Shown: piece by piece, positions 5,967 to 39,840 of the stretch
Numbering within the stretch: position 1 is the stretch's first letter
Layout: the number at the start of each line of letters is the position of its first letter
Assembly: GCA_019638675.1 (NCBI GenBank)
Contig: JAHBTE010000001.1
Span: 2,574,605 to 2,638,604, forward strand
Source of the DNA: Fimbriimonadaceae bacterium
GTDB taxonomy: Bacteria > Armatimonadota > Fimbriimonadia > Fimbriimonadales > Fimbriimonadaceae
Length of the DNA stretch: 64,000 bases
Reading direction: 5' to 3'
Translations under genes and position numbers: made by a program
The notes under the pieces: generated by a model
What the model was told of the DNA's origin: nothing
The model's database searches: none
Seen by the model: only the letters and a program-made list of their open reading frames with translations

Positions 5967-7598
5967 TTATTCTTCGCCTAAGAACGGATAGCGGTAATCC
6001 ACTGGAGAAACCAAAGTTTCCTTGATCGTTCGTGCGCTGAGCCATCGGTAGAGGTTCAATGCTGAACCTGCCTTATCGTTGGTTCCGCTTGCCCGCGCAC
6101 CACCAAACGGCTGCTGACCAACGACTGCTCCGGTTGGTTTATCGTTGATGTAGAAGTTCCCCGCCGCGCCACGAAGTTTATCAACGGCAAGCTCGACTGC
6201 CATTCGATCTGAGCTGATAACCGCCCCGGTGAGAGCATAAGGCGATGTTGTATCGACCAAATGCAAAGCGTCTTCAAACTTTTCAGCATCGTAAACGTGG
6301 ATCGTCAGAACTGGCCCGAAAATCTCCTCGCACATGGTTCGGTACTTCGGATCTTTTGCTTCGATTACGGTAGGTTCAATGTACCAACCTTTGCTCTTGT
6401 CGTAGCCGCCGCCAACTAGAATCTCGACTCCAGAATCTTTTTTGGCTTGATCCAAATATCCAGCAATGGAATTGAAAGACTTTTCATCAATCACAGCGTT
6501 TACAAAGTTGCGGAAGTCATCAACTGGCCCCATCTTAAAGGTCTTGATTCCAGCGACCAGCTTCTTTTTAACTTCATCCGCAATATTTGATGGAATATAA
6601 GCTCGGCTGGCAGCTGAACACTTCTGACCTTGATATTCAAAAGCGCCGCGGAGCAAAGCCGTAACAACCGCATCCACGTCGGCACTCTTGTGAGCGATCA
6701 CGAAGTCTTTTCCGCCTGTTTCGCCAACGATTCTTGGATAAGTTTTGTACGTGCCCATGTTCTCGCCGATGGTCTTCCACATTTGGTTGAACACGCCAGT
6801 AGAACCCGTAAAGTGCACACCCGCAAAATCAGGATGGTTGAAGCAGACGTCACCAACGGTTGGCCCGCCAACAAAAACTAAATTGATCACGCCATCTGGA
6901 AGCCCGGCTTCGCGCAGAACCTTCATGATCATATTCGCAGAATAGGCCTGCGTATTGGCGGGTTTCCAAACCACTACGTTTCCACACATCGCCGCGCTGG
7001 TCGGAAGGTTTCCGGCAATCGCGGTGAAGTTAAACGGGGTTACGGCAAGCACAAATCCTTCCAGCGCACGGAACTCAAGTCGGTTGTGAACTCCGGGACT
7101 GCTAATCGGTTGCTGGCGATAGATTTCATCCAAGAAATGGACGTTGAACCGCAGGAAGTCGATGATTTCACAGGCCGAATCAATCTCGGCTTGGAAAGCA
7201 TTTTTGCTTTGACCAAGCATGGTTGTGCCGTTCATGTACGGTCGGTACTTGGTCGCCATGAGTTCGGCGGCTTTCAGGAAGATATTCGCTCGGTTTTCCC
7301 AACTCATGTTCGACCACTCTTCCCGAGCGGCAAGCGCGGCGTCGATCGCCTGCTCAACGTGCTTTGCCTCACCCATGTGGAAGTGACCTAGCAAATGCGC
7401 GGTTTCGTGAGGAGGTCGGATTTCGACTTTTTTATCGGTGCGGACTTCTTTCCCGCCGATGATCATCGGAATGTCGGCGGTTTCGCCTTTCAGCTCGGCA
7501 AGAACTTCTTTGAGCCGCTTTTTCTCCGGGCTGCCCGGAGCGTAGTTCAACACTGGTTCGTTGGCGGGGATAGGATAACTGAAGTTGCCGACTTTCAT
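5967..7598 (-). CDS. pruA: L-glutamate gamma-semialdehyde (1-pyrroline-5-carboxylate) dehydrogenase
   Basis: NAD-dependent oxidation of glutamate semialdehyde to glutamate, the second step of proline breakdown. Aldehyde dehydrogenase landmarks are all present: TPFNFTAI (187-194), WKPA (211-214), FTGS (263-266), general-base Glu293 in VGETGGKDF and catalytic Cys327 in GQKCSAASRAY. The N-terminal EPVLNYAPGSPEKKRL and the GGQRASG-equivalent FGGARASGTNDKAG near the C-terminus fit the stand-alone 540-residue form found in eukaryotes, Bacteroidetes and Deinococcus-like bacteria, rather than the PutA fusion. No proline dehydrogenase gene is adjacent, so the partner must be elsewhere. Confidence 0.95.
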   Translation of the reverse strand: MKVGNFSYPIPANEPVLNYAPGSPEKKRLKEVLAELKGETADIPMIIGGKEVRTDKKVEIRPPHETAHLLGHFHMGEAKHVEQAIDAALAAREEWSNMSWENRANIFLKAAELMATKYRPYMNGTTMLGQSKNAFQAEIDSACEIIDFLRFNVHFLDEIYRQQPISSPGVHNRLEFRALEGFVLAVTPFNFTAIAGNLPTSAAMCGNVVVWKPANTQAYSANMIMKVLREAGLPDGVINLVFVGGPTVGDVCFNHPDFAGVHFTGSTGVFNQMWKTIGENMGTYKTYPRIVGETGGKDFVIAHKSADVDAVVTALLRGAFEYQGQKCSAASRAYIPSNIADEVKKKLVAGIKTFKMGPVDDFRNFVNAVIDEKSFNSIAGYLDQAKKDSGVEILVGGGYDKSKGWYIEPTVIEAKDPKYRTMCEEIFGPVLTIHVYDAEKFEDALHLVDTTSPYALTGAVISSDRMAVELAVDKLRGAAGNFYINDKPTGAVVGQQPFGGARASGTNDKAGSALNLYRWLSARTIKETLVSPVDYRYPFLGEE

Positions 7599-7659
7599 GG
7601 GAACAGTCTACCGACCAGCCTACAAAGCGGTTGAAAATAGGCCCGTCTCGAAAACTACA

Positions 7660-7702
7660 CCCTAAAATAAGAAAGTGCTCCAAGTTGCGTACCTGGAGCA
7701 CT
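7660..7702 (-). terminator. rho-independent terminator of the PEP-CTERM gene
   Basis: Perfect 9-bp arms AGTGCTCCA (7674-7682) and TGGAGCACT (7694-7702). Read on the minus strand the hairpin is followed by TTCTTATTTT, placing termination just after the PEP-CTERM gene and before pruA. Confidence 0.8.
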
Positions 7703-7723
7703 GAGGATTCTTGTAAAGAGTCC

Positions 7724-8461
7724 TTATTTTCGCTTTCGTCGAGCCAAGAATCCGGCAAGGCCAAGGCCAAGTACGGTCATGGTTGCTGGTTCAGGAACTG
7801 ATTGAACCGCATCAGCGATAATTGTTGAGGAAAGGTTGCCGTTTGTCCAACCCGTACCATTGTAGAACTCGTTTTGCCGAATAACGCCATCATTATTAGG
7901 TGAAAAATCAGCAAAGAAGCCGTTGCTCCAGGAACTTCCAGCAGCAATAGAACCACCGTTCTTGAAACCGTTCAGCATTTTAGCTCCGGTATCAGAGGTA
8001 GAGTTCCAGATATATTCAATTGAATATCCTGAAGTATTTGCAGGGTTATCTGCCAAATCAATATTCAAACCTGTAACTGTCCAGGTTTGACCGCTACCCG
8101 CAGCAGTTGCTGTGAAACTTGGAGCAAATGTAACTGTCGCTGTTCCTGCCAATGATGTGAATGCAGGGTCACTAGCAACACCGCTTACCGAAGTGCCGTT
8201 CCATACATTGATGGTTAGGACGCGAGAATTTGCAGCATAAACACCAGCAGCACTGGAAAACATTACGCCGCGCATTTCCGTGATTCGCCAGTGCATACCT
8301 GCTCCAGCTGAGGCAACGAGGAAATTATCTCCAGCACGTTCCGCACCTGGGGTATTAAAGAACGAAAATCCAGCAGTACCACCCTGGACATCGTAGATCG
8401 TAACAGCTTGGCTAGCCGCAGCAACTGCAGCTAGAGCTAGAATGGGAATTATTTTTTTCAA
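7724..8461 (-). CDS. PEP-CTERM sorting-domain protein
   Basis: Exported surface or matrix protein of unknown role. It has a signal peptide (KKIIPILALAAVAAASQA), a Ser/Thr/Asn/Gly-rich beta domain of about 195 residues, and a C-terminal PEP-CTERM tripartite signal: VPEPATM, a hydrophobic stretch, then ARRKRK. By family knowledge such tails are processed by an exosortase; no exosortase gene is in this window. The start is a TTG (reading MKKII), supported by GGAG 10 nt upstream and by the signal peptide beginning there. It is followed by its own terminator, so it is probably monocistronic. Confidence 0.92.
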   Translation of the reverse strand: MKKIIPILALAAVAAASQAVTIYDVQGGTAGFSFFNTPGAERAGDNFLVASAGAGMHWRITEMRGVMFSSAAGVYAANSRVLTINVWNGTSVSGVASDPAFTSLAGTATVTFAPSFTATAAGSGQTWTVTGLNIDLADNPANTSGYSIEYIWNSTSDTGAKMLNGFKNGGSIAAGSSWSNGFFADFSPNNDGVIRQNEFYNGTGWTNGNLSSTIIADAVQSVPEPATMTVLGLGLAGFLARRKRK

Positions 8462-15006: not shown

Positions 15007-15114
15007 CTTGTATCCCCTCAGGTTACCCGGCAGGGTTCGGCGAAAACTGGGCACCCGCTTAGCCCTGGTTTGAGCTTAGGAATCTGGGTAACTTTGAATC
15101 TGAAACCAGCTTGA

Positions 15115-15283
15115 CCTGTCGTGGGTCAAGACGTTCCGATCCTGATCGGAGCGTTCAGGGGAAGTCCGGTGAGAATCCGGCACTGTGCCGCAACGGTGAT
15201 CCTTAGCAATTAAGGTCAGTCCGAATGCCTGCCGTGTTTCTTGAAAATCAGAAGGCTAACCTACGAGCATGGGGCAGGCGTCA
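15115..15283 (+). promoter_or_regulatory. cobalamin (B12) riboswitch
   Basis: The conserved core is plain on the plus strand: GGGGAAGTCCGGTGAGAATC, then CCGGCACTGTGCCGCAACGG, then the B12 box AGTCCGAATGCCTGCC at 15218-15233. An upstream hairpin (ACGTTCCG / CGGAGCGT near 15131-15154) fits a peripheral stem. The sequence GGCAGGC at 15273-15279 is a perfect 7-nt complement of GCCTGCC in the B12 box (15227-15233) and lies immediately after an ATG, so it could act as an alternative pairing partner in the expression platform. Limits of the element are approximate. The next annotated gene in the same direction is a pseudopilin, not a B12 gene. Confidence 0.9.
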
Positions 15284-15346
15284 ACAATGGCGTTTGTCTG
15301 GCCCTTCGTAAATCAATCCTTCTGGCCCAACTGGTCAGAACAATGA
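15269..15346 (+). CDS. putative 25-residue leader peptide between riboswitch and pseudopilin
   Basis: From ATG 15269, inside the riboswitch expression platform, a 25-codon frame ends in a TGA whose first two bases are the last two of the pseudopilin ATG (ATGA overlap). The peptide holds three Trp and three Phe in its second half ([13 protein letters not shown]). The start codon abuts the GGGGCAGG sequence that can pair with the B12 box. This arrangement fits a translated leader coupled to the downstream gene, but there is no obvious ribosome binding site, and a chance frame of this length is quite possible. Confidence 0.35.
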
Positions 15347-16119
15347 AAAAAGCATTCACGCTTATCGAACTCCTCGTCGTCATCGCGATCATTGCGATTC
15401 TTGCTGCGATTCTCTTCCCCGTTTTTGCCCAGGCAAAAACCGCCGCCAAAGCCACCCAGTCGCTGAGCAATCTCAAACAGATTGGCCTTGCTTGGAACAT
15501 GTATCTCGCCGATTACGACGACACCTGTATGCGCGACCGAACCGATTCGCCAGGGAAAACCTACTACTGGTGGGGCAGTTTTGATGGCACAACGCTCCGC
15601 AAAAACGAAGCCCTTCTCTTCCCCTATATGCGAAATGGACAGATTCAAAGCGACCCGCTGTTTGATCTCAAAAACCGTTCCGCTCTGGGAGACACAGGCT
15701 ACGGATACAACTACGCTTACCTTTCGCCGAGCGATTATCCCGCCCCGACTTACAAAGAGGTTCCCAGGCCCGTAAATGCTTCGCAAATCGAGCGCACTGC
15801 GGAAACCATTGCATTTGCCACTTCGGCCCGGATTAACAACTGGTCTTCATCGGCGGCTGTTTTGGAATCTAATTCGTACCTGGAACCACCCAGTTCCGAA
15901 TTCCCTACCATCCATGGACGGGCGGCAAAAATGGCTGTAGTCGTGTGGACAGATTTCCATGCCAATCGCATGCGCCCGGTTCTGCGGAGTGGATCGTTTG
16001 GTTATGGTTACAACGAATCTATGTTCAAGCCGTACGATTTGGGCGATTTGCTGAAAGCTGGGTGTTCGTTTGGTTCAACTTGCGAGGATTACTACTTCGC
16101 GACTGCAAAGGTGGAGTAG
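15343..16119 (+). CDS. type II secretion pseudopilin-like protein (prepilin N-terminal methylation signal)
   Basis: A 258-residue protein with a class III signal: short basic leader (MKKA) then [19 protein letters not shown], the prepilin peptidase/N-methylation motif with Glu5 of the mature form, continuing into [17 protein letters not shown] and [18 protein letters not shown]. This is the Armatimonadota/Planctomycetes style of DUF1559-like pseudopilin. The C-terminal part has the TDFHANRM block, a divergent version of the usual FADGH motif. An in-frame TTG at 15241 would add 34 residues before the signal and lies inside the riboswitch, so ATG 15343 is chosen. A B12 riboswitch precedes it. 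No other secretion gene is adjacent. A paralogue is at 58813-59619. Confidence 0.9.
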
Positions 16120-16177
16120 CTCGGGTTTTTCTTACCAAGCCTGGGAGGAGATTAAGAGGTCGGTTCTTCATTTTATC

Positions 16178-16254
16178 GTGCCCCTACCTTTGATTGCAAA
16201 GGTAGGGATTTTATTAGCCCAACCCCACCCTAACCCTCCCCAGGCTGGGGGAGA
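16178..16254 (+). repeat. composite intergenic repeat, copy A
   Basis: Begins CGTGCC and contains a perfect 11-bp hairpin, CCCTACCTTTG (16182-16192) and CAAAGGTAGGG (16197-16207), then ATTTTATTAG, then a C-rich block with a second imperfect hairpin (CTCCCCAG / CTGGGGGAG). It matches copy B at 16915 over about 75 bp with only a handful of differences, in the same orientation. The first hairpin plus T-rich tail could terminate the pseudopilin transcript. The C-rich part translates as the familiar spurious PHPNPPQAGG string seen in dispersed repeats of many bacteria. Confidence 0.85.
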
Positions 16255-16304
16255 GAAACTTAGAACTTTCCCTACATTAAGCTTTTCTGGTACATAATCG
16301 TATT

Positions 16305-16865
16305 GTGAAAGTTGCGGGCTGTCTCGTTCTGTTCCTATTTCTATTCGGGTGCTCTTCAACTAAAAAAATTGCGGAATTATCGCCGACCGTTGCACAACCT
16401 GACATGTCAAATACTGTAACGGTCTCAGTTCCGGCCGATAGTCATAGAAAGTCATTTACCTTTCAGATGCCAACGAACCTGGCTACGCTTAGACGTGTTA
16501 GCAATGGAATTGCCGCGGTCAAAACGCGTTCGGGAGCCAATATTTTTTTGTGGGTGCCAATACCAGGAGAGCGCGAAATTGAAGATGAATATGGACGAAA
16601 GCATATTGAAACAAAATACTACAGTGAAATGAAGCGAGAATTACTTGAGGAAGTTAATCGCAGACCAACGGCGGATCATATTATCGCAAATAGTTTTGCC
16701 GGATACTGGCGGTACCATAGTTCTGGTGCAAGTATCCACTTGTTCTCTGAAAGTGAAGTCGTGTTTGTAGGTTGCGGATTTGAGAAAGATAATTCCCCGA
16801 CAGAATATGAATGCTTACAGTTTATCCATTATCTTATTTGGAGCATCAAAGTAGGCACCTCTTAG
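16305..16865 (+). CDS. hypothetical lipoprotein between two repeat copies
   Basis: A 186-residue lipoprotein: signal VAGCLVLFLFLFGC with lipobox LFGC (Cys16), then SSTKK. The start is a GTG. The mature part has a beta-strand rich region (NTVTVSVPADSHRKSFTFQM), the string SGANIFLWVPIPG and a charged helix (YYSEMKRELLEEVNRRPT). I recognise no family. It is flanked by directly repeated 75-bp elements (16178-16254 and 16915-16991), an arrangement that could reflect repeat-mediated insertion or duplication. AT content seems higher than in neighbouring genes by eye, which would fit a foreign origin, but I have not measured it. Confidence 0.65.
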   Translation: MKVAGCLVLFLFLFGCSSTKKIAELSPTVAQPDMSNTVTVSVPADSHRKSFTFQMPTNLATLRRVSNGIAAVKTRSGANIFLWVPIPGEREIEDEYGRKHIETKYYSEMKRELLEEVNRRPTADHIIANSFAGYWRYHSSGASIHLFSESEVVFVGCGFEKDNSPTEYECLQFIHYLIWSIKVGTS

Positions 16866-16914
16866 CAAAGTCAACGATAAAAGCACTCATTGTTTTCCTT
16901 TTCGGAAAACTGAT

Positions 16915-16991
16915 CGTGCCCCTATCTTTGATTGCAAAGGTAGGAATTCTATTAGCCCAACCCCGCCCTAACCCTCCCCAGGCTCGGGGAG
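16915..16991 (+). repeat. composite intergenic repeat, copy B
   Basis: Same orientation and layout as copy A: CGTGCC, arms CCTATCTTTG (16921-16930) and CAAAGGTAGG (16935-16944) with one A-C mismatch, a T-rich spacer ending ATTAG, then the C-rich block with a CTCCCCAGGCTCGGGGAG pseudo-palindrome. The mismatch is in the first arm only, so copy A looks closer to the intact form. Confidence 0.85.
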
Positions 16992-17038
16992 GCAGACGTT
17001 AAGTCTGGGTGCCACTGGTGAAACCAGTGCAAAGAATT

Positions 17039-18106
17039 TCAATAAGCTGGCTTAAATTCAACTGGGTCGATTTCATCAAACCCGATCTCGGCTTCGTACT
17101 TACCCGTTCTATCGAACATCCGCTTAACCGCATCTTCAATATGCTTGAAATCTAGCCCCGGGAAAATGGCAGTTTCACGCAGATTTCCATCTTCATCTGG
17201 AACAAGCCGGGTTTTGCGGATGCCTTCTTCGAGCAGTCGTTTGCTAGCCATGCCAAGGTTATCCAGAGCCTTCTGAATCACGTCGCGGCTGTGTTCACGC
17301 GGGCCGTAGATGCCCGCCTTATGAACGATGGTCGAGAACTCGTTGTAATCCGGAATCAAAGCCCCCGCCGGCATGGAAAAGTACTTGATCACGTCGTGCA
17401 TCGCCTCTAAAGCTTGGGCCGGATAGTAGTAAAGGAACAGCCGGGCGCCTTCAAGGAAGAAGTTGTAGTGCGCCGCTTCATCAATCGCGATGAGTTTACA
17501 AGCCTGAACCAAAACCGGGTCAGCAGAATCTTTGAACTGCTCAACCTTGCTCTGTCCTTTAGCGATGACCCCCATACCGAGGTAATTGATCTGGGTGGCC
17601 CGTTCTTGGAACACCGTATAGAAAATCATCCGAATCGGGTCGCCTTCCCACGGCAACTTCCAGGTGTTCGACCGCAATTCGCCCATGTAGTTGCGGAGCC
17701 ATTCTGGAGATCGGAACCGACTGAATAGAACTGCGTTATGCCAAAGATCAGCATGTTTGCTTTCTTCGCTTCCCCATCGGATTTGGAAGTGGGAACGTCC
17801 GTGGCTTTTGCGGATGAGGTCGACAATGCTTTCCACGTAGTCAGGAACGTACTGCTCAACGGCGAAAAACCCTTCGAGAATCTTGTTGACTTCGTAGTTG
17901 TGGTCTTGCCGAATCTTCTTCCACAGCACGTCGCGGTCGGGATTCCAATTCCGCAAAGCTTGACTCCGATCAACGTACCATCGGTACAGGGCAAGGAATC
18001 CACGCTCAATCAGGCGGTCTTTTTCATCCCGGCTGAGCAATCCGACGGGAATCTTGGGGCGGTCGGCCTCCAAAGTTTCGACTATAGATCGGTCGTAGCT
18101 CAGCAT
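17039..18106 (-). CDS. acyl-[acyl-carrier-protein] desaturase (diiron, soluble)
   Basis: Introduces a double bond into acyl-ACP using O2 and a ferritin-like diiron centre, in the cytosol. The helix-bundle ligands can be traced: Glu in GFFAVEQYVPDY, the GSEESKHADLW (ExxH) motif near residue 113, Glu in VFQERATQINY near 171, and DEAAHYNFF (ExxH) near 210. This is the plant/actinobacterial stearoyl-ACP desaturase family (FA_desaturase_2), 355 residues. It implies aerobic membrane-fluidity control. It stands alone; a short palindrome GTTAC-GA-GTAAC lies between it and the divergent CHAP-like gene and could be an operator. Confidence 0.9.
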   Translation of the reverse strand: MLSYDRSIVETLEADRPKIPVGLLSRDEKDRLIERGFLALYRWYVDRSQALRNWNPDRDVLWKKIRQDHNYEVNKILEGFFAVEQYVPDYVESIVDLIRKSHGRSHFQIRWGSEESKHADLWHNAVLFSRFRSPEWLRNYMGELRSNTWKLPWEGDPIRMIFYTVFQERATQINYLGMGVIAKGQSKVEQFKDSADPVLVQACKLIAIDEAAHYNFFLEGARLFLYYYPAQALEAMHDVIKYFSMPAGALIPDYNEFSTIVHKAGIYGPREHSRDVIQKALDNLGMASKRLLEEGIRKTRLVPDEDGNLRETAIFPGLDFKHIEDAVKRMFDRTGKYEAEIGFDEIDPVEFKPAY

Positions 18107-18251: not shown

Positions 18252-18292
18252 ACGTCATTGACTTGGCACAATTCCTACTGGGCACATTCCAC

Positions 18293-18802
18293 ATGACAGC
18301 TTTGGCGCTTTGCACTTTCCTGATTTCCAATGTATCAGCAGAAGATCATCTGCGTACGCAGGTGTTGAGCTATGCATCTCAGCACGTTGGTCAAACTGTG
18401 GGAAGCGGCGAATGTGCGGAACTAGCTGACGAGGCTCTAAAAGCGGCTAAAGCTAAAGCGTATGGCACTTGGGCGGATTCCCCGCAATCTGGTGACTACG
18501 TTTGGGGCAAAAAACTTGCCACTATCACTCCCACTAATTTTTCAGTTGAGCCTAATCTGTTTCAGCCAGGTGACATTATTCAAATTCGCAACGCCAAATT
18601 TGTTGAAAAAGCTGGCCCAATGACCACAACTTACACGGCGACTCAGCACACGGCAATTATTGAGCAAGTGAAAGCTGACGGCTCTGAAATCACTCTGCTT
18701 GAGCAGAATTCAAACGGAAAACGATTTGTTACCCGCAAAACGATCCGGCTGAACACGCTCAAAGCCGGAACGATTTGGGTTTATCGCGCTCAGCCCCTTT
18801 AA
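18293..18802 (+). CDS. secreted CHAP/NlpC-P60-like protein
   Basis: Exported protein with a papain-like amidase look. A signal-like hydrophobic N-terminus (TALALCTFLISNVSA) is followed by a catalytic-type Cys in VGSGECAELADEAL (Cys at the start of a helix), a PNLFQPGDIIQI strand pair, and a His in TATQHTAIIEQV. That Cys...GDII...H order is the CHAP/NlpC-P60 pattern. Many such enzymes cut peptidoglycan peptides, but the substrate here is not known, and the fold call is moderate. A TTG at 18263 would add ten residues; the ATG is chosen for codon preference. Its stop overlaps that of the sigma54 activator on the other strand. Confidence 0.65.
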   Translation: MTALALCTFLISNVSAEDHLRTQVLSYASQHVGQTVGSGECAELADEALKAAKAKAYGTWADSPQSGDYVWGKKLATITPTNFSVEPNLFQPGDIIQIRNAKFVEKAGPMTTTYTATQHTAIIEQVKADGSEITLLEQNSNGKRFVTRKTIRLNTLKAGTIWVYRAQPL

Positions 18803-25870: not shown

Positions 25871-25908
25871 TATAAAACCCCTACCTTTGAGATCAAAGGT
25901 AGGGGCAC
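25871..25908 (-). repeat. stereotyped hairpin repeat, copy C (ppdK terminator)
   Basis: A perfect 13-bp hairpin, arms CCCCTACCTTTGA (25878-25890) and TCAAAGGTAGGGG (25893-25905). On the minus strand it reads CGTGCCCCTACC first and ends with GGGGTTTTATAA, which is the same layout as copies A and B (GTG before, T-run after). It lies 18 nt past the ppdK stop, so it probably terminates that gene. Confidence 0.85.
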
Positions 25909-39806: not shown

Positions 39807-39840
39807 GTGCCCCTACCTTTGCAAAGCAAGGTAGGGGATT
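39807..39840 (+). repeat. stereotyped hairpin repeat, copy D
   Basis: GTGCCCCTACCTTTG-type element with perfect 10-bp arms CCCCTACCTT (39810-39819) and AAGGTAGGGG (39828-39837), then ATTTCC. It shares the GTG lead-in with copies A, B and C, but has a longer loop (TGCAAAGC). It lies between the sigma/DUF4349 terminator and the end of the DUF4097 gene on the other strand. Confidence 0.8.

Follow-up and report, generated by a model that had tools for sequence, protein, structure and literature searches.

Direct repeats around a lipoprotein gene of a Fimbriimonadaceae bacterium are probably clusters of REP/BIME-type palindromes

How does a single short gene come to lie between two nearly identical repeats in the same orientation? 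This arrangement is found in the window analysed here, a stretch of 64,000 nucleotides (G000:C1:2574605-2638604) from the 2.85-Mb genome (G000) of a member of the Fimbriimonadaceae, a family within Armatimonadota. The initial annotation of the locus proposed that it could have arisen by insertion or duplication through a short repeat or from a mobile cassette, or that it could equally consist of two independent terminator repeats. The question has been addressed by comparison with the other genomes of the genus, among them the sister genome G003. The nearest named relative is CP075366.1, Fimbriimonadaceae bacterium ACE_ARM8, which is identical to G003 over the 16,558 bases compared.

The arrangement itself was confirmed. 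The two copies, initially described as 75-bp elements, are direct repeats of 79 nt that are 94% identical, with a start-to-start distance of 738 nt. Copy A (16175..16253, + strand) is composed of a palindrome designated P (hairpin 16179-16207), a spacer and a second palindrome designated Q (hairpin 16234-16255), and lies 59 nt past the pilin gene. Copy B (16913..16991, + strand) has the same composition and orientation, with a P hairpin (stem 16921-16944), a spacer and a Q element (hairpin 16972-16993). Folding of copy A yields two hairpins (z -3.4), and folding of copy B together with the next 41 nt yields the same two hairpins plus two more (z -4.1). Both copies stand beside further palindromes: a degenerate R-type palindrome (16127..16168, + strand; R consensus TTCTCCTCCCAAGTTTGGGAGGAGATNAAGAGGTGGGTTG), upstream of copy A, which matches G000:C1:2446820-2446861 at 83% and also matches two further R sites, and an S hairpin, GGTGCCACTGGTGAAACCAGTG (17008..17029, + strand), after copy B, which belongs to the family of repeats that flank the second RAYT gene described below. 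The left neighbour of the whole arrangement is a prepilin-like gene with an N_methyl motif (15343..16119, + strand), and the right neighbour is a convergent gene of the FA_desaturase_2 family (17039..18106, - strand); the prepilin-like gene is found beside the desaturase gene in G003, G005, G006 and G007. Other features of the window are a cobalamin riboswitch (RF00174, 34.6 bits) at 15112-15250, upstream of a prepilin-like gene; a small CHAP-matching protein at 18290-18799, whose best score is to AIM3/BBC1_C, a Pfam domain named from fungal proteins; and two more P hairpins, at 25879-25907 (18 nt past a gene's end) and at 39808-39836.

As initially described, only one open reading frame lies between the copies. 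It starts with GTG at 16305, ends at 16865 (+ strand) and encodes 186 amino acids, with an N-terminal hydrophobic stretch ending in LFGC, judged by eye to be a lipobox. The claim that this gene is richer in AT was also upheld when GC content was measured, with values of 0.432 for GC and 0.387 for GC3, against 0.517/0.578 and 0.517/0.611 for its neighbours and a GC of 0.497 for the window. It was not called by a codon-usage score trained on the long ORFs of the fetched loci. The gene is AT-rich, codon-atypical and foreign-looking. Comparison with the G003 orthologue gives a dN of 0.134 and a dS of 0.666, and the gene is under purifying selection. This divergence is uneven (dN 0.203 and dS 0.941 for codons 1-112; dN 0.044 and dS 0.345 for codons 113-186), which suggests either past recombination or a constrained region.

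Homologues of the lipoprotein were found in two of the 61 genomes at E<=0.001, namely G000 and G003, and a pattern scan of genome contigs returned one locus, in the sister species CP075366.1. A match in G022 (E 0.007, 27% over part of the protein) was taken as chance, as were the two matches of a PDB sequence search, with E values of 0.0074 (over the signal-peptide end) and 0.8. Pfam, NCBIfam and PADLOC gave no match at the thresholds applied, and AlphaFold2 models of two lipoprotein sequences reached a mean pLDDT of 45.6, too poor for a fold search. The product is expected to be a passenger, probably an envelope protein with no relation to the repeats.

The repeats are far from private to this locus. 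A search of the G000 genome with the locus gave 26 matches, and the 25 that are not the locus itself all fall within its repeat-bearing parts, none in the gene. Nine matching regions, and one more in the window, are mosaics of four palindromes: P (GTGCCCCTACCTTTG..CAAAGGTAGGG), Q (AACCCCRCCCTRACCCTCCCCAGGCTTGGGGAGGGAA), R, which is a Q-like element mostly found in the opposite orientation, and S (GGTGSCACKGG..CCMGTG). Counted with search patterns, which score some palindromic sites on both strands, there are 29 Q, 11 strict P, 14 S and 11 R in G000 and 43 Q, 13 strict P, 23 S and 7 R in G003, with none for the reversed-pattern controls of any family in either genome. A looser pattern detected 19 P hairpins (one of them a miscalled Q) and 17 S hairpins in 0.33 Mb of mostly repeat-bearing stretches; the P hairpin of copy B escapes this pattern because of altered stem bases. 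Among the eight genomes of the genus, S occurs in six, the single S match of G004 being equal to its control count.

With respect to genes, the 91 repeats in the fetched G000 loci occupy 44 convergent, 41 unidirectional and 5 divergent positions, and one is intragenic; the 153 spacers of at least 30 bp in the same loci comprise 32 convergent, 82 unidirectional and 39 divergent ones. Genes were called for this count by a simple script that missed the lipoprotein gene, so that copies A and B were both counted as convergent. P and S are thus short palindromes dispersed outside genes, as REPs are, although the high copy number of REPs, often over 100, is not seen for either of them. The stems of P vary in a paired fashion (for instance TACCTTTG/CAAAGGTA and TGCCATTG/CAATGGCA), and the base before the TG of P is G in 34 of 42 copies, the TG itself, like the GTGG/GTGC of S, having been required by the search patterns.

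The origin of P and S is indicated by their position around two genes. G000 encodes two proteins of family PF01797, L031 and L032, which score above the NCBIfam cut-off for the REP-associated tyrosine transposase (RAYT) model NF047646 (86.8 and 92.8 bits; cut-off 80) and below the cut-off of the IS200 model. L032, the RAYT at G000:C1:2242124, is bracketed by two P hairpins in inverted orientation; L031, the second RAYT, is bracketed in the same inverted manner by S hairpins. The same P and S flanks are present at the orthologues in G003 (L054 and L056); the NCBIfam scan covered the G000 proteins and L057 of G006. Strict P is confined, within the eight genomes of the genus, to G000 and G003, the two that carry the P-flanked RAYT. 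P is the flanking REP of the RAYT at G000:C1:2242124. The paired variation of the stems and the flanking of transposase genes correspond to published marks of RAYT/REP systems. Against a REP stand the scarcity of P and its foot, GTGC rather than GTAG.

PF01797 is found in four of the eight genomes, and three S-bearing genomes (G001, G004 and G005) have no match to it, which means that S tracks its RAYT imperfectly. In G006, one RAYT has its own S-like hairpins around it, and inspection by eye showed neither P nor S beside the second PF01797 gene. The former, L057 (G006:C1:959031-959282), is a third RAYT (87.5 bits) and is surrounded by several hairpins such as GGTGGCATTGGTCTCTGACCAATG. The PF01797 match of G007 is cut by a contig end, and no P or S was seen by eye in the following 500 bp. 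As for Q, inspection by eye found it bounding neither RAYT gene of G000, and half of each repeat is therefore left unexplained by a RAYT.

The history of the site can be followed in the congeners. In G003, the lipoprotein gene occupies the corresponding position and is likewise flanked by two P-Q composites, of which the one at B is diverged. The layout is therefore older than the split between G000 and G003, and comparison of these two gene-bearing species reveals no empty site. The gene is absent at the site from the five other congeners in which it was located (G002, G004, G005, G006 and G007). In G007, the protein match to the prepilin and that to the desaturase end within about 85 bp of each other, and the interval holds one Q-type palindrome and no gene. 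The gap between the ends of these matches is about 0.4 kb in G006, where the pilin match is 21 residues short and the true spacer is consequently smaller, and about 0.85 kb in G005, where it includes a reversed Q-type element. In these two spacers (L034, about 7544-7969, in G006; L035, about 6490-7335, in G005), the lipoprotein gene is replaced by other sequence, partly alike by eye. No prepilin match was found beside the desaturase gene in G004 and G002, and the gene is absent from the assembly of G001, in which the site itself was not placed.

The empty site looked for in the initial annotation is thus missing from G003. The presence of gene and repeats in all relatives, which was regarded there as evidence against mobility, is observed in G003 alone, the gene being restricted to two of the 61 genomes. 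Since the gene is absent elsewhere, the simplest history is a gain on the G000/G003 branch, on which P and its RAYT are also found. As to an insertion through a short repeat, the absence of the gene from the five congeners, together with the lone Q-type palindrome in the short spacer of G007, fits gain or loss beside a repeat; it does not demonstrate a repeat-driven insertion, and the congeners that lack the gene are too diverged to display an insertion junction.

According to these data, we consider, with a probability of about 0.8, that copies A and B are REP/BIME-type clusters located at the 3' ends of genes, and that the gene which they flank was acquired on this branch. P would be the non-autonomous REP of the RAYT at G000:C1:2242124, and Q is a second palindrome family, more frequent and lacking a RAYT in this genome. 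All four palindromes would have spread into the spacers at the 3' ends of genes, P and S presumably by single-strand hairpin transposition, by analogy with the RAYT/REP literature. In this way, palindromes may have built up around a spacer, to its left and right, into which an AT-rich, foreign-looking gene moved on the G000/G003 branch, the absence of this gene elsewhere pointing to a gain. Once in place, two near-identical direct repeats could also recombine, which would delete the gene and leave one repeat.

The rival account that fares best, although it is unlikely, is a local duplication, in which one repeat would descend from the other through recombination or transposition, the gene having been brought in or trapped on the same occasion. 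It agrees with the closeness of A and B, which share 90% identity over 83 columns and match four other P-Q composites of G000 at 77-83%, and with the 71% identity between B and its positional counterpart in G003. Nevertheless, B is equally close to the A copy of G003 (90%), informative sites among A, B and that copy are distributed 4/4/4, as in a trichotomy, and a P-Q composite is already present at both sites in G003. Given these site counts, homogenisation of B by A after the species split was dropped and no recent copying from A to B is claimed.

That the copies are simply two independent transcription terminators of similar sequence is improbable. Both P hairpins look like terminators in a simple scan, which called three terminator-like sites in the region against an expectation of 1.4, and the repeats lie at gene 3' ends, with copy A shortly past the pilin gene. 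However, among the 19 P hairpins (one a miscalled Q) recorded for the fetched loci of G000, the tail contains a run of four T in only three and a run of five T in none, and P and S flank RAYT genes, a trait that termination does not need. P and S palindromes may terminate transcription as a by-product. Of the origins initially proposed, two independent repeats came closest to the present reading, even though their nature is that of REP/BIME-type palindromes and not of plain terminators. The mobile cassette raised in the initial annotation, specified here as one in which a RAYT acting in trans would excise and insert the gene between same-strand P hairpins, like the left-end and right-end hairpins of IS200/IS605 elements, is the least probable account and is not supported: same-strand P hairpins do lie on either side of a foreign-looking gene, and both gene-bearing genomes have a P-flanked RAYT while strict P occurs in none of the six other congeners, but there is one copy of the gene per genome, at the same place and with both repeats in both species, the P repeats of the RAYT genes are inverted across the gene and not direct, and each cluster has extra Q, R or S elements.

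Reading A and B as REP/BIME-type clusters leads to the question of whether such repeats move genes. It was examined in colinear sequence of G000 and G003 totalling 0.27 Mb, most of the regions having been picked for holding repeats. Among 48 notable length differences, a repeat was detected in either genome at 19 and in neither at 29. Three of the 31 clean differences have direct repeats of the P, Q, R or S families near both ends, and two have other repeats of 11-12 nt. There is one good case of one repeat versus two: a G003 segment with a DUF559 gene, disrupted by a stop, is enclosed by Q repeats of 44 bp with 95% identity, whereas G000 has at that site a single, different Q-type hairpin. 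The third bounded difference sits at G000 2357138. With 28 of the 31 clean differences free of bounding direct repeats of these families, and in regions biased towards repeats, a general role of the repeats as drivers of gene gain and loss is not claimed; exchange between them is at most a minority route. Single hairpins come or go, as do genes that lie beside P, Q, R and S repeats. At the lipoprotein locus, the G000/G003 comparison revealed no recombination product.

Two further sites of this comparison are worth recording. At the second of the three bounded differences, a YjbR-family gene lies between two S repeats in G003 (L081, G003:C1:792452-792820), and its G000 counterpart (L065, G000:C1:1907092-1907274) lacks the gene and keeps both S repeats, 137 bp apart. 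Repeat-to-repeat exchange therefore fails to explain this locus, and its interpretation as a gene between two S repeats versus one S was rejected. No S-like match adjoins the left side of the gene, even with five substitutions allowed; its homologues are weak and limited to G004, G001 and G002, and a G000 copy elsewhere has an internal stop. In addition, a solo S hairpin within G000:C1:759378-759400 is cleanly absent at G003:C1:1895191-1895194 (52 versus 2 bp), and this site is a candidate for a recent REP insertion or loss.

The half of each repeat that lacks a RAYT, Q, was found in a different company. The genus contains 13 DUF559 loci (L098-L110), in seven of its eight genomes, and nine of them have a repeat common to both flanks (E<=1e-6, either orientation); when 12 of the loci, all but L104, were scanned for C-rich hairpins, the same nine had them on each side of the gene. 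Five of the nine hold an inverted pair of hairpins whose GGGGT..ACCCC tails face the gene (inward GGGGTT tails). Two pairs, L107/L108 and L109/L110, look like orthologues of G003 and G000, so that the genus loci are not all independent. A similar proportion was observed at plasmid DUF559 loci from Deinococcota, Cyanobacteriota and Alphaproteobacteria (L111-L122), nine of the 12 sharing flanking repeats at the same threshold. The loci with no shared flanking repeat are L099, L100, L103 and L104 in the genus and L111, L112 and L113 on plasmids. The C-rich double palindromes beside the S. meliloti DUF559 gene may resemble those of the rhizobial RIME mosaic elements.

Controls gave far lower figures. 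Flanking repeats were detected in 3 of 525 sliding intervals of six stretches of about 24 kb from the same plasmids, in 7 of the 109 annotated genes of these stretches (four of the seven adjoin a DUF559 gene and share its repeats) and in none of four YjbR loci. Within the window, 59 non-overlapping ORFs of 120 amino acids or more were subjected to the flank-repeat test, and the lipoprotein gene was the only one with a repeat common to both flanks (E<=1e-6). On this comparative evidence, DUF559 genes are associated with Q-type palindromes on their flanks. It can tentatively be proposed, at less than even odds, that Q marks another kind of element able to spread palindromes, served by a DUF559 (Vsr-like) endonuclease in place of an HUH transposase. 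We infer that Q elements may be mobile and that DUF559 proteins may cut palindromes; a nick or cut made by the endonuclease at the hairpin would let repair copy the element, and the solo Q and R copies would be scattered in spacers in a REP-like manner. A literature search, from whose coverage most subscription journals were absent, did not turn up a link between DUF559 and palindromes.

A puzzling repeat-flanked gene can thus be explained by the REPs that are spread across its host genome, in a phylum that has received little study, and two RAYT/REP pairs, with their orthologues in a sister species, are now available for study. The locus itself is likely to be ordinary to specialists, and it is the DUF559-palindrome association that merits a proper survey: if the link is causal, it would provide a candidate enzyme for RAYT-less palindrome families such as Q.

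Among known systems, P and S most resemble the REP/RAYT systems or REPtrons, as far as the consulted parts of the published accounts describe them (Nunvar et al. 2010, PMC2817692; Di Nocera et al. 2013, PMC3733652): short extragenic palindromes, RAYT genes each bounded by an inverted pair of REPs, RAYTs of the same genome that are specific to different repeats, sites downstream of genes and mixed clusters. They differ from the REPs in those parts in their GTGC or GTGG foot, versus GTAG, and in their low copy number, although a GTGG foot is reported there for one REP family (PMC3733652). The P-Q composite departs further from these systems in its Q half, which lacks a RAYT, and in its host phylum, Armatimonadota; our literature search found no paper with both 'Armatimonadetes' and 'repetitive extragenic palindromic'. 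The same survey, in the sections consulted, reports one large RAYT-less REP superfamily, CGTC (PMC3733652). With regard to the enzyme, the Caulobacter protein VsrA belongs to the same DUF559/Vsr-like family as the genes flanked by Q-type palindromes here; the consulted parts of its description concern mismatch repair and DNA damage, and the string 'palindrom' does not occur in that text (PMC12907096). Finally, the composite shares with REPINs the character of a higher-order unit of two palindromes, and the excision of REPIN doublets has been reported (Bertels and Rainey 2011, PMC3116915). In the part of that work consulted, REPINs are mostly inverted pairs of one REP, whereas P-Q joins two different palindromes in the same orientation.
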